The notes beneath the pieces are model-generated. The model ran no database searches. It had not been told where the DNA came from and worked only from the letters and a program-made list of their open reading frames with translations. Of a stretch of 64,000 nucleotides of DNA, positions 19,486 through 24,314 are shown piece by piece. Within the stretch, counting starts at the first letter, position 1. Each line of letters begins with the position of its first letter. The translations under genes and the position numbers were made by a program. The stretch is from Phenylobacterium sp. GTDB taxonomy: Bacteria > Pseudomonadota > Alphaproteobacteria > Caulobacterales > Caulobacteraceae. The DNA is taken from NCBI GenBank assembly GCA_017991675.1, contig JAGOQB010000001.1, positions 124,001 to 188,000 on the forward strand, read 5' to 3'.

Positions 19486-20814
19486 ATGACGGCGGGCGTC
19501 CAGGCGCGAGTCTTGATCGTTGCAAAGGACGATGCGGTTGCTGGCCCCCTGGCCGAGGGCCTCGACCGCCTCGGCTGGCGCACAGTGACGGCCCGCGGCC
19601 CCTACGCCGCCACGGCTACGCTGGTCGATCTCAATGTCGAGGCGGCGATCGTCGACCTCGCCAGCGGCGGGCACGAGGCGCTGACCATGGCGCGACGCCT
19701 GAAATCGGCCTGCGCGCCGCGCCGGATCCCGGTCATCGCCATCGGCGATCCCGGCCCGGAACTTGAGACCTACGACTTCGACCTCACCCTCGCCGCCCCG
19801 GTCCACCCGGCCCAGATGGTGATGCGGCTGGAGACGCTGGTCCGCACCGCCGTGGCCGAGGAAGAATTCGAGCTGCGGCTGGAGACCTTCGCCGAACGCG
19901 GCCGGCGCCTGGACATGCCCGAGCCCGAGTCCACGCCCTATCAGGTTCTGGCGATCGGCGAGCCGGCCCCGCAGTTTCTGGCCCTCGCCAACGCCCTGAC
20001 CCGCTCAGGCGCCGAGGTCGTGGGCGCGTTCACCGCCTATACCGCCTTCGACTACCTGCATGAGCGTCCGTTCGACGCCGTCGTCCTGTGGGCGGGCGAC
20101 ACCAGCCAGGAGGCGCTGTCCATCGCCGCCGGCATGCGGCGCAACACCCGACTCTATCACACGCCCGCCCTGCTCTACATGCGCCAGGAGAGCTACGTGA
20201 CGATGTCGGAGGCCTACCATCGCGGCGTCTCCGACGTGGCTTCGCCCGAGACGCCGGAAACCGAGACCGCCCGCCGCGTGCTGGAACTGGCGCGCAGCTA
20301 TCGCCGCCAGGTGTCGATCCGCCGGGCGCTGGAAATGGCGCGCACGTCCGGCCTCATGGACGCGGCCACCGGCCTCTTCACCCGCGACCTGTTCGCCCGC
20401 CACGCGGGGCGCCTGGCCCAGGCCTCGCGCGCGCGCGGCCGTCCGCTGTCGGTCTGCGTGCTCAAGGTGGCCGAGCGGACCGACGTCTCCGCCGCGCGCG
20501 CCGGCGGCTGGCTCGACCGGGCGATCCCGCAGATCGGCTCGATGGTCGGCCGGCTGGTGCGCGTCGAGGACACCGCCGCGCGCCTCGGCCAGGAGGTCTT
20601 CGCCCTGGCCCTGCCCGCCACCGGCAAGGCCGCCGCCCGCGCCGCCGGCGAACGCATCGCTGCGGTCATCGGCTGCACCGCATTCGAGGCCGGCGACGGC
20701 CAACCGCCGTTCGTGGTCGATTTCGACATCGGCGTCGCCGAAGTCACCTCGCCCGAGAGCGTCGGCAAGGCGCTCGAAGAGGCCGCCGCCCGGGCGCACC
20801 AGAAGGCCAGCTAG
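19486..20814 (+). CDS. popA: PopA-like receiver-receiver-GGDEF protein with degenerate catalytic site
   Basis: 442 residues. Layout is receiver domain 1 (residues ~8-130, phospho-acceptor candidate Asp57 in AIVDLAS), receiver-like domain 2 (~155-285, without a clear acceptor) and a GGDEF domain (~305-440). The GGDEF position reads GQEVF (about 368-372) instead of GG(D/E)EF, so cyclase activity is not expected, while the inhibitory c-di-GMP site RVED (359-362) is intact at the correct five-residue distance. This is the signature of Caulobacter PopA, the PleD paralogue that binds c-di-GMP and helps deliver CtrA to ClpXP. Start MTAGVQARVLIV. Confidence 0.83.
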   Translation: MTAGVQARVLIVAKDDAVAGPLAEGLDRLGWRTVTARGPYAATATLVDLNVEAAIVDLASGGHEALTMARRLKSACAPRRIPVIAIGDPGPELETYDFDLTLAAPVHPAQMVMRLETLVRTAVAEEEFELRLETFAERGRRLDMPEPESTPYQVLAIGEPAPQFLALANALTRSGAEVVGAFTAYTAFDYLHERPFDAVVLWAGDTSQEALSIAAGMRRNTRLYHTPALLYMRQESYVTMSEAYHRGVSDVASPETPETETARRVLELARSYRRQVSIRRALEMARTSGLMDAATGLFTRDLFARHAGRLAQASRARGRPLSVCVLKVAERTDVSAARAGGWLDRAIPQIGSMVGRLVRVEDTAARLGQEVFALALPATGKAAARAAGERIAAVIGCTAFEAGDGQPPFVVDFDIGVAEVTSPESVGKALEEAAARAHQKAS

Positions 20815-23800
20815 CCGGTCGCCCTCGCCACGGACAGGAACGAACCGCGAAGCCGCACGATCAGTGTTTGGCCCTTGTTCCAAGCCACCCAGCTCACGAT
20901 CCCGCCGACCAGCGCGCAGGCCACCTGCAGCAGCGGCCAGTCCGGCGCGCCCACCGCCGTGAGCGCGACCCGGAAGTAGTAGTGGGTCAGGTAGATGAAC
21001 AGCGAACCGCCCGACAGCAGGAAGATCACCCGCCCGAACGGCTTCAGAATCGGCAACCGCCGAACGAACAGCAACGCGAAGGCGGAGGTCAGGATGAAGA
21101 ACCAACTCATCACCTCGAGGGTGAAATAGGTCGCCGCAGCGTAGGCCAAGGCCGCCGCCATCGTCGTCAGCCGCTGACGAGGCGTCTGCGCGCACGCCGC
21201 CATCGCCCCCAGGATCAAGGTCGGATAGTGGGTGGTCGGCAGCACATTCACGACCAGAAGCGGATCGGATGTCGCCTCGGGATAGTCGGGGAATATCAGG
21301 AACGGCATCGCGAACCGGAAGACGCACCCTAAAGCAAAGGAGGTCACCAGGAACGACCACTTTCGCTCCGGCTCCAGCCGTCGCCTCCCGCTGAGCAGGA
21401 TCGACAGATACAGGATGGCGAGCATCTGCATCATGCAGTGGATGTACCAGAGGAAGAACTGCTTCTCGCTCGGGGTGTAGGCCAGGAAGTTCTTGTAGAA
21501 GAACACCAGCGACCACGAGGCCTCCTGCCCGGCCAGCACCTTGGCGAAGAACAGTGCGTAGGAGAACAGCGCCACGGGAATCGTAACGCTGAGCAGGACC
21601 TTGAGAATGGGTTTGGCGCTCTTCTTCTCGAACACCTCCCATAGCTGGTGCCCGCCGATCATGAACCCGGACACCAGGAACAGGGCGCTCGTCGCCCCGC
21701 CCCCGTATTCGAACAAGTCGAAGTGGCCGGCGACGACCAGCACGATCGACGCGGCGCGGATGATCATCGACGTATCGACGTCGCTGAAGAAGCGCTTGGC
21801 CGGCGTGGCGGTCGCCGCGATGTCTTGCAAGGACATCAGATGCCATCCGTCGGGCACAGCGCCCAGCACCTCCTCGGTCGCCAGGTAGAGCTGCACGTAG
21901 GACAGGCTGTCCCCGCCGATGCTCACGAACGACGACCCGGGGGCGACGTCCCGCCGCCCCAGAACCGAATTCCACTTTTCGACCAGCGCGCGTTCCTTGG
22001 CGCTGCCGCCTTGACGGCGCGCCGCCTCGGGCCCGGCATCGGCGGGGCCCGCCATCCTGTCGCGCAGCGCCATACGATCGATTTTGCCGTTGGGCAGCAG
22101 CGGCATCGCCTCCAGACGTACGAGGCTGCTCGGCGACATGTAGCTGGGCAGCCGATCGCCGAGGAACTTCTGGATGTCCTGCTGCAGGTTCGCGTCAGAT
22201 CGGTCGGAGGTCACGAACGCGGCGATCCTCGGCGCGTCGGCCCCGCCCTCAGCGAGGGCGATGGCTGACCCGACGTCGGGATGCGCCAGCAGGGCCGCCG
22301 TGATCTCGGAGAGATCGACCCGATAGCCCCGAATCTTGATCTGGTCGTCCTGGCGGCCAAGCACCACGACGTCCCCGCTCGGCAGATAGAAGCCGCGGTC
22401 GCCGGTATAGTAGGCCTCGCCGCTCGTGCTGGCCTGGATTTCGCCGCCGACCACATAGCCCAGGCTGAGCAGGTTCGAGCGGACGGCGATCTCGCCGACC
22501 TCGCCGATCCCCTTCATTCGCCGCTCACGGTCGACGATCAGGAGCTGGAAGCCGCCCGAGCCGCGTCCCACGGGGACCGTCTTCCAATCGAAGTCGCCGT
22601 CAAAGACAAAATAGCCGGCGGCCTGCGGGGTCTCGGTCGACCCGTAGAAGTTGACGTTGACCGCCTTGGGCGCGACGCGGGCGATCTCGGTCAGCAGCGC
22701 CGGGCGAAGCAGGTCCCCGCCCCAGAAGACATGGCGAAGCCCCGGAAACGCCCCGGCCTTCGCCCCGGCGCAAAGCAGTTGTCCCATGGCCGGCGTCATG
22801 TGCGCGGTGGTCGGACGAACCTCCTCGAACCAACGCCGCAGCCCCCCCGGTTCGAAGATCGCCCGCTGTTCAGGGATCATCAGGCAGGCGCCGAGCGAAA
22901 GCGGCGTGAAGATGTCGCGCAGCAACGGATCGTGCGACAGCCCCGACAGCATCGTGAATCGGTCGCTCGCGCCGAGCTCGAACCTCGCCGCCTGCCAGGT
23001 CACGAAGTTCACCAGCGGTCTGTGGCCGACGGCCACGCACTTCGGAACCCCGGTGCTGCCCGAGGTGAACAGCAGATAGGCCGGATCGGCCGGGTCGGCG
23101 GCGTCGAGCCCCGCCTCCTCCCCCTTCGTCAGTATCTCTCGGCCGGGATGGACGATGGGCGCGCCCCGGCTGGCTGCGATCCGCGCCGCAAGGGCCTTCA
23201 CATCCTCGCCGTCAGCGGCGCAGACGACGGCGCCGACCGCTGCGATCTCCGCCAGGTCGACAAGGCGCTGTTCGGGGTAGGCGCTGTCGAGGACCACAAA
23301 CACCCCGCCCAGCCGTAGAACGCCAAGGATCGCCCAGATCAATGCCGGGCCGCGTTCGGCGATAATCGCCACGCGGTCGCCGCTCCTGACGCCCGACGCC
23401 TGCAGCCGCGCCGCCACGTCTCTCGAACGCGCCTCGACCTGGGCGTAGCTGTAGGCCAGCCGGCCATGACGCAGGGCGATCGCCTGGGGCGTTCCGCGCG
23501 CAGTTCGCAAAAACGCGGTGTGAACGAGCTCTTGGCCGCCTGCCGTCAGGGCCGCGGCCGGATCCGGAAGTACGCCCGGCGCCGCCAGCGCGCTGGATCG
23601 GATCTTGGCCGTCGGCGTCGACGGCGCGGCGCAAAGGCGTGTCGTGAGAGCGAGAAGCAGATCGCCGATCGCCGCCGCCCGCGACGGCGACACGCCCGCG
23701 GCATGAAAGACCGACACCGTGCCCGGCGAGGCGGCGAGATCAAACTCCAGACCCAGATCGAACGCGCCCTTGGGGTGGGTCAGCGCCGAGCCGCCAGTCC

Positions 23801-24236
23801 TGACGTCCAGGGCCAATCGCGGCGCCGCCTCGTCGCCGGCCGGCGTGCGGCTCGCGAACGCAACCGCCTGAGCGTGCTCGCCCAGCGAGCGCGCCTCATC
23901 GACACCGATGCTGAGCGATATCCGGCCGCGTTCATCGCCGCCCAACGCCACGTACTGCCGATCGACGTCGGTCAGCCGGGCCAAGACAATCAAACCGATC
24001 GCCCGGGCCACGTCACCGGCGCTCACGCCGGCGCTGCGCGCACTCGCCTCCAAGTCCGCGCGAACCCCTGCTGGCAGGTCGACTACGACCCGACCGCCTT
24101 CGCTTGGATCGGCGGCGAGCCGATCCATCGGGATTGTCGGCATTTCCTCCGACGTGCCGGCTTGCGCCGGTCGAGCCTCTAAGTTCAACGACGCGTGCAT
24201 ACGCGACCGTCCATCCCACAGGACGATCTTCCCCAT
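20811..24236 (-). CDS. Adenylation-carrier-membrane acyltransferase fusion (NRPS-like)
   Basis: 1141 residues. (1) ~45-230: partial condensation-like region lacking an HHxxxDG motif. (2) ~255-730: adenylation domain with A3 LLFTSGSTGVPK, A4 LSHDPLLRDIFTPL, A5 NFYGSTETP, A7/A8 YYTGDRG and DQIKIRGYRVDLSEI, and A10 LPNGKIDR; the Asp in the A4 region suggests an amino-acid substrate, and this segment resembles alpha-aminoadipate reductase (Lys2) domains. (3) ~750-820: carrier protein with phosphopantetheine serine in IGGDSLS (about 775). (4) ~830-1130: OafA-type acyltransferase 3 with about ten membrane spans, including VVAGHFDLF...LFLVSGFMIGG and SLFIYLTHYYF. Probably activates an amino acid and transfers it to a cell-surface acceptor. 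The stop overlaps the popA stop. Substrate and acceptor are unknown. Confidence 0.88.
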   Translation of the reverse strand: MGKIVLWDGRSRMHASLNLEARPAQAGTSEEMPTIPMDRLAADPSEGGRVVVDLPAGVRADLEASARSAGVSAGDVARAIGLIVLARLTDVDRQYVALGGDERGRISLSIGVDEARSLGEHAQAVAFASRTPAGDEAAPRLALDVRTGGSALTHPKGAFDLGLEFDLAASPGTVSVFHAAGVSPSRAAAIGDLLLALTTRLCAAPSTPTAKIRSSALAAPGVLPDPAAALTAGGQELVHTAFLRTARGTPQAIALRHGRLAYSYAQVEARSRDVAARLQASGVRSGDRVAIIAERGPALIWAILGVLRLGGVFVVLDSAYPEQRLVDLAEIAAVGAVVCAADGEDVKALAARIAASRGAPIVHPGREILTKGEEAGLDAADPADPAYLLFTSGSTGVPKCVAVGHRPLVNFVTWQAARFELGASDRFTMLSGLSHDPLLRDIFTPLSLGACLMIPEQRAIFEPGGLRRWFEEVRPTTAHMTPAMGQLLCAGAKAGAFPGLRHVFWGGDLLRPALLTEIARVAPKAVNVNFYGSTETPQAAGYFVFDGDFDWKTVPVGRGSGGFQLLIVDRERRMKGIGEVGEIAVRSNLLSLGYVVGGEIQASTSGEAYYTGDRGFYLPSGDVVVLGRQDDQIKIRGYRVDLSEITAALLAHPDVGSAIALAEGGADAPRIAAFVTSDRSDANLQQDIQKFLGDRLPSYMSPSSLVRLEAMPLLPNGKIDRMALRDRMAGPADAGPEAARRQGGSAKERALVEKWNSVLGRRDVAPGSSFVSIGGDSLSYVQLYLATEEVLGAVPDGWHLMSLQDIAATATPAKRFFSDVDTSMIIRAASIVLVVAGHFDLFEYGGGATSALFLVSGFMIGGHQLWEVFEKKSAKPILKVLLSVTIPVALFSYALFFAKVLAGQEASWSLVFFYKNFLAYTPSEKQFFLWYIHCMMQMLAILYLSILLSGRRRLEPERKWSFLVTSFALGCVFRFAMPFLIFPDYPEATSDPLLVVNVLPTTHYPTLILGAMAACAQTPRQRLTTMAAALAYAAATYFTLEVMSWFFILTSAFALLFVRRLPILKPFGRVIFLLSGGSLFIYLTHYYFRVALTAVGAPDWPLLQVACALVGGIVSWVAWNKGQTLIVRLRGSFLSVARATG

Positions 24237-24288: not shown

Positions 24289-24314
24289 CTGCGATCACCG
24301 TTCAGTGATCGCAG
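24289..24314. promoter_or_regulatory. Perfect inverted repeat upstream of the adenylation-acyltransferase gene
   Basis: CTGCGATCAC-N6-GTGATCGCAG, 10-bp perfect arms with a 6-base centre, located 53 bases upstream of the start of the 1141-residue fusion gene. Size and position suit a repressor/activator operator or a leader hairpin. No regulator of it is identifiable in the window. Confidence 0.5.

Follow-up and report, generated by a model that had tools for sequence, protein, structure and literature searches.

Within a 64,000-nucleotide stretch of a Phenylobacterium sp. genome (contig JAGOQB010000001.1, positions 124,001 to 188,000; hereafter the window), one reverse-strand gene encodes an adenylation (A) domain, a carrier or thiolation (T) domain and a membrane-embedded acyltransferase-3 (AT3) domain in a single chain, preceded by a remnant of a condensation (C) domain. 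The best-supported reading, to which we give about an even chance, is that this protein is a self-loading AT3 enzyme with a Dlt-like mechanism contained in one chain. A carboxylic acid, probably an amino acid, would be activated by the A domain through a Lys2-like pocket and then loaded onto the protein's own carrier arm. The charged arm would then probably feed the acid into the membrane domain, with phosphopantetheine in place of acyl-CoA, for transfer across the membrane to an acceptor that may be a polysaccharide, its lipid-linked unit or a lipid. Overall, this would resemble DltA, DltC and DltB joined in a single chain, with AT3 replacing the MBOAT protein, and relatives that retain a C domain would hand on an acylated or dipeptidyl group.

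Domain architecture of the fusion protein

We scored 7994 candidates in a homologue search and analysed the best 120 of 296 homologues, which include the window protein itself (P0001) and a paralogue on contig C7 of the same genome (P0009); all counts out of 120 refer to this set. The features of the gene are as follows, with the evidence in brackets.

20811..24236, reverse strand: whole coding sequence, C remnant-A-T-AT3, 1141 amino acids (open reading frame, Pfam, AlphaFold2)
23598..24155, reverse strand: residues 28-213, second lobe of a C domain without HHxxxDG, the fastest-diverging part (BLAST, structure, conservation)
22053..23519, reverse strand: residues 240-728, A domain with intact core motifs (Pfam, NCBIfam, PDB search, structure)
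22917..22931, reverse strand: residues 436-440, D-P-L-L-R, start of the substrate code
21837..22004, reverse strand: residues 745-800, T domain (Pfam, alignment, AlphaFold2)
21906..21908, reverse strand: Ser777, predicted phosphopantetheine site (serine in 120/120)
20835..21773, reverse strand: residues 822-1134, AT3 domain with about ten membrane helices (Pfam, AlphaFold2, fold match)
21756..21758, reverse strand: Arg827, first residue of the AT3 motif R-X10-H (120/120, and 60/60 in a second set)
21723..21725, reverse strand: His838, last residue of R-X10-H (120/120 and 60/60)
21576..21602, reverse strand: residues 879-887, K-V-L-L-S-V-T-I-P in helix 3, where carrier-less AT3 proteins have RXXR

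The reading frame starts with ATG and has no internal stops, and the AlphaFold2 model of the whole protein, based on a 79-row alignment, has a mean pLDDT of 88.6, with low confidence for a short tail at the N-terminal end. The A domain is covered by Pfam AMP-binding (residues 244-594, E = 1.5e-64) and AMP-binding_C (residues 644-718, E = 8e-6), and the core motifs of a nonribosomal peptide synthetase (NRPS) adenylation domain can be read in its sequence, including the catalytic lysine of NGK718. The A4 stretch, described as Lys2-like in a first-pass annotation made from the letters of the window, is indeed of the SHDP type, and the best NCBIfam match is L-aminoadipate-semialdehyde dehydrogenase (TIGR03443), at 330 bits, far short of the equivalog cut-off of 1030.1. 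The ten-residue substrate code, at what we take to be its positions, reads DPRHFGFQAK and is identical in 105/120 homologues; it agrees with what we assume to be the Lys2 code at seven of ten positions, and the domain retains the Asp that presumably reads the alpha-amino group. Judged by sequence, the substrate is likely an amino acid or an aminodicarboxylic acid. Among the literature matches listed, the presumed Lys2 code string was not found. A-code terms were absent from one review of A domains, and the excerpts of PMC11298585 hold nothing on Lys2.

The Pfam PP-binding match to the carrier (residues 750-793) scores 19.7 bits, slightly below the cut-off of 20.8, and GGDS777L supplies the serine of an NRPS carrier, the one singled out in the first-pass annotation as GGDSLS. 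The distance from this serine to the AT3 arginine is nearly fixed, at 50 residues in 83 homologues and 49-54 in all 120. About ten long helices follow in the AlphaFold2 model. In the predicted structure they adopt the AT3/TmAT fold, with a fold match across most of the domain, and Pfam Acyl_transf_3 (PF01757) matches residues 826-1116 with 35.4 bits, above the cut-off of 31; searching the PDB by sequence with this part of the protein gave no match up to an E-value of 10. R-X10-H lies in helix 1 and is called absolutely conserved among AT3 proteins in PMC9833829 (here and below, papers cited by number are represented by excerpts). A Pfam search up to an E-value of 0.1 found neither a Condensation match nor a thioesterase or reductase release domain. 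With the AT3 fold present instead of a release domain, we reject the idea of a standard NRPS whose release domain had been overlooked. The N-terminus aligns in a single BLAST stretch to the full C-A-T-AT3 paralogue, from residue 208 of the latter onward, and in structure it matches the second lobe of condensation domains from NRPSs (model residue 27 corresponding to residue 201 of EntF, and 22 to 239 of Txo2); the lobe that bears HHxxxDG is missing.

An adenylation domain, a carrier and an OafA-type membrane acyltransferase of about ten spans in one polypeptide, with a partial condensation-like N-terminus lacking HHxxxDG and no release domain, is what the first-pass annotation had described, and the searches and the model bear this out. 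So do the homologues, in which the A-T-AT3 order recurs across the best 120, together with an AT3-type membrane part; the identical domain order also leads us to reject a chance reading frame or a fusion artefact. The activating, carrier and membrane parts are real and occur together repeatedly, and they seem catalytically complete.

Absence of the RXXR motif and the probable acyl donor

At the cytoplasmic end of AT3 helix 3 lies an RXXR motif that is reported to be essential in characterised AT3 proteins (PMC9833829, PMC7448272); in published excerpts on CoA-using AT3 proteins of the OafB type it is highly conserved, with one arginine touching the 3'-phosphate of CoA. In the window protein the motif is absent from its usual place, which reads K-V-L-L instead. 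As a control, a pattern parse of 30 loci from the same genome and eleven relatives gave 19 carrier-less AT3 reading frames (nine loci had none), 18 of them distinct, and all 18 show R..R followed by a proline within one to three residues; L165 and L176 are identical, L167 and L185 are frames of more than 600 amino acids, and L187 (wrong frame picked) and L189 (itself a fusion, with the motif missing) were left out. The same pattern at canonical spacing is found in 1/120 family members and in none of 66 distant fusion loci, the latter chosen by pattern without individual checking. Since a carrier-bound phosphopantetheine arm is like the arm of CoA but lacks the 3'-phosphate, we read the absence of RXXR as an exchange of donor, and infer that the phosphopantetheine arm would replace acyl-CoA in the AT3 pore. 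By its sequence we place the window protein in the AT3 fold family but outside the CoA-using OafB-type subgroup.

Comparison with known systems

In the Dlt system, as is proposed for the window protein, an adenylation enzyme charges a carrier with an amino acid, which a multi-span membrane protein then hands on to an envelope polymer (PMC3783018), but DltA, DltC, DltB and DltD are separate and DltB is an MBOAT protein, whereas here one chain ends in AT3. The DltA equivalog TIGR01734 reaches 171 bits against a cut-off of 559.85, and PF01757, rather than an MBOAT family, is the sole match of the membrane part. In the AlmEFG system, which glycylates Vibrio lipid A, adenylation, carrier and acyltransferase functions add an amino acid to an envelope lipid, as proposed here; these are again separate proteins and AlmG is of the LPLAT type (PMC3783018), whereas the window protein is a PF01757 fusion with no LPLAT-type Pfam match. 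OafA, OafB and OatA (PF01757, in the TmAT superfamily with HGSNAT and GWT1) have in common with the window protein R-X10-H in the first helix and a fold of about ten helices; they differ in that acyl-CoA is the presumed donor and RXXR is present. The A domain of poly-epsilon-lysine synthetase (Pls) is a distant PDB match to that of the window protein (7wew, 125 bits). Pls likewise joins A and T domains to a downstream membrane part in a single chain, but probably differs in its C-terminal part, where three soluble condensation-like domains in tandem are set among membrane helices instead of AT3; after the window carrier, Pfam finds no condensation-like domain. Lys2 shares the SHDP-type A4 stretch and terminates in a reductase.

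The AT3 fusions described in the literature excerpts carry SGNH, racemase or NRF domains (PMC9558356, PMC9833829, PMC12423673), with no A-T fusion named there, and AtsA is a stand-alone AT3 protein (PMC11064477). The A-T-AT3 architecture, including the pair PF01757 and PF00501, was not found among the literature matches listed, which cover AT3 papers in part and so do not prove its absence. Known systems for activation, carriage and membrane transfer need several separate proteins, and here one gene may serve. If so, the groups that can be attached would widen from acetyl-like ones to any acid that an A domain can select, and the entry of the donor into the AT3 pore would become testable, as the arm is covalently tethered through a known serine and could be trapped.

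Related fusions and polysaccharide loci

Three versions of the protein are found among the 120 homologues, namely full C-A-T-AT3 (60), the shortened C domain (6, including the window protein) and A-T-AT3 without a C domain (51), besides three partial proteins. The genome itself contains three more fusions, a tandem pair on contig C7 and one on contig C20. In the tandem pair (L009:10459-17789, also covered by L010), a C-A-T-AT3 and an A-T-AT3 gene stand on either side of an accessory gene for exosortase-V (XrtV) sorting; downstream lie genes for a STAND-type ATPase, for nucleotide-sugar enzymes resembling those of dTDP-rhamnose and for a Wzy_C protein, names such as dTDP-rhamnose being based on Pfam classes and inspection by eye. 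A similar pair is found at L049, and at L049, L134, L197 and L199 the fusion is surrounded by sugar transferase, GtrA, glycosyltransferase, nucleotide-sugar or DUF3485 genes.

The XrtV accessory family occurs at 55 places in 48 of 149 genomes, and at 9 of the 30 places examined, our genome included, a gene matching the fusion stands beside it; seven of the nine matches cover only the first 440-460 residues or so of the C7 A-T-AT3 protein and one only the C domain of the other gene, since the sequence compared stops at that point, and the AT3 half was verified in four of the nine from longer DNA. A fixed link between the family and XrtV is false, with no fusion within about 1.5 kb on each side at 21 of these 30 places (of 55). 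Searching the literature for XrtV together with exosortase returned no match.

AT3 proteins modify bacterial surfaces in many ways, with effects on phage receptors, lysozyme resistance and symbiosis, and their donor is taken to be acyl-CoA. A surface acceptor for the window protein is plausible. The surface aminoacylation proposed in the first-pass annotation is supported in part: the parts themselves, the near-fixed linker and the polysaccharide clusters around some relatives speak in favour, while the window gene lacks adjoining glycan genes. More tentatively, and at somewhat less than an even chance, we suggest that the transmembrane acyltransferases of a widespread family have abandoned acyl-CoA. 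Each would be charged by its own fused activating and carrier domains, insert the loaded phosphopantetheine arm into the membrane pore in place of CoA and so decorate extracytoplasmic polymers with amino acids or other acids, a full Dlt-like pathway on one polypeptide; a sister branch in the Actinobacteria would use another acid under iron control. The observations also connect this uncharacterised gene family with polysaccharide loci of the exosortase-V type in Caulobacterales and, in Actinobacteria, with iron-box-like sites.

In two genomes, a C-A-T-AT3 gene at L051 and L052 (the same place as L198) lies between glucose-6-phosphate dehydrogenase and GH15/trehalase-like genes, with a trehalose-phosphatase gene nearby (neighbours assigned by Pfam on L052 alone).

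Alternative explanations

Several observations weaken the donor exchange, the surface role or the single-gene reading. RXXR occurs at another spacing in the helix 3 stretch of 22/120 homologues, and R-X3-R in 28 of the 66 distant loci; glycan genes do not adjoin the window gene, and many relatives likewise lie outside polysaccharide clusters. The three further fusions, two of them in tandem in the exosortase/polysaccharide locus, make the "single-gene system" of the first-pass annotation too strong as a general rule.

The most serious competitor, which we nevertheless consider rather unlikely, is a small-molecule synthetase in which AT3 acts as an unusual release domain, joining the acid to a small acceptor to yield a metabolite for secretion, for example a metal chelator. 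Full-length relatives do keep condensation domains with HHxxxD[GA] (56/60), the code of the window A domain is also present in NRPS proteins that have no AT3 domain (P0121 and P0128 among them), and some AT3 proteins modify antibiotics, although most well-characterised AT3 systems target extracytoplasmic sugars (both PMC9558356). The sister clade bears on the same question; it comprises 55 fusions, nearly all from Actinobacteria and drawn from 80 loci of which several end at contig ends, along with the second gene of the C7 pair and the C20 gene. In Actinobacteria, 37 sister-clade loci contain an ABC-transporter gene for a solute-binding protein, at most 2.5 kb away in 30 of them. Iron-box-like sites, defined by at least 14/19 matches to what we take to be the 19-base actinobacterial consensus, lie upstream of 36/56 actinobacterial A-T-AT3 genes versus 12/712 control genes of the same loci (36/58 versus 12/745 with two non-actinobacterial loci added), and the best site exceeds all 50 shuffles in 20 of 22 divergent intergenic regions. 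These sequence patterns speak for a metal-related role in the actinobacterial branch, and are as compatible with a secreted product as with one on the surface; together with the transporter genes they keep the small-molecule explanation alive for the whole family. Yet the iron-linked clade carries a different A code (C/SYSATAM[A/P]RK in 54/58 proteins, close variants in the other four, with unchanged catalytic residues), and the window gene has no adjoining transporter or tailoring gene. We reject iron control for the window gene, whose best upstream match to the actinobacterial iron box is 10/19, which is background level (Fur-type boxes were not searched for).

As an observation in its own right, the iron-box-like palindromes upstream of actinobacterial A-T-AT3 genes (L067-L128), often near solute-binding and permease genes, may mark an unrecognised iron-starvation system.

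It is less probable still that the membrane part is a mere anchor, or inactive as a transferase, with the A-T half loading the acid for another enzyme. The membrane segments of Pls separate its catalytic domains, which is the analogy behind this idea, and the absence of the reportedly essential RXXR from its usual place would agree with it. Against it stand the invariant R-X10-H, the fold match, and the conservation within the clade of the window protein, where AT3 exceeds the A domain in four comparisons out of five.

Finally, a decaying, non-functional C-A-T-AT3 copy that has lost half of its C domain is very improbable: the remnant lacks an active site and diverges fastest, and the three other fusions could take over its role, but five homologues of the set, from other sources, have the same shortened form and group with it in one clade, at 56-87% identity and with catalytic residues kept.

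The shortened clade

The six shortened-C proteins form one clade (support 1.0) neighbouring C-bearing proteins. This placement fits an ancestral loss of half of the C domain, although support is weak for the two nodes that follow (0.50 and 0.44). No clear further copy of the shortened form was found in 101 genomes of the genus, with fragments left open, and a scan of genome contigs with the window protein as single query retrieved no relative. Between P0004 and the window protein the identities are 93% for T, 85% for AT3, 62% for A and 34% for the C remnant; the order is reversed in P0002 (A 93%, above AT3 at 86%), and against four C-bearing relatives AT3 (36-47%) falls below A (55-59%). This uneven conservation implies that the T-AT3 unit in the shortened clade is either strongly constrained or has been swapped by recombination. 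The mosaic across P0001-P0006, where four of the five comparisons show far higher similarity in T and AT3 than in A and the C remnant, perhaps reflects domain exchange. Elsewhere, at L057:4169-11257, an open frame of 2363 residues has T-AT3 at its end behind a long N-terminal part.

Genomic surroundings

A gap of 172 bases separates the start of the gene from the end of mfd, which lies upstream on the same strand. A purine-rich stretch stands immediately 5' of the ATG, and the gene overlaps the end of a convergent GGDEF gene by four bases (gene calls here and at the other loci are based on a script for G+C by codon position); with this gap and this overlap, it resembles a single-gene unit. One further feature lies between mfd and the coding sequence:

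24289..24314, no strand assigned: perfect inverted repeat of 10 bp with a 6-bp spacer, a possible operator or hairpin

Its 9-bp core, allowing spacers of 4-8 bases, occurs once in the assembly, at this position. Farther along the window, 42000-64000 holds a run of genes resembling a P2-type prophage, as judged by eye from first residues, with no search made. In the assembly as a whole, which is 70.7% complete, only a single match to phosphopantetheinyl transferases of the ACPS family was found (G000:C17:60468-60755), and three of six relatives tested have two.
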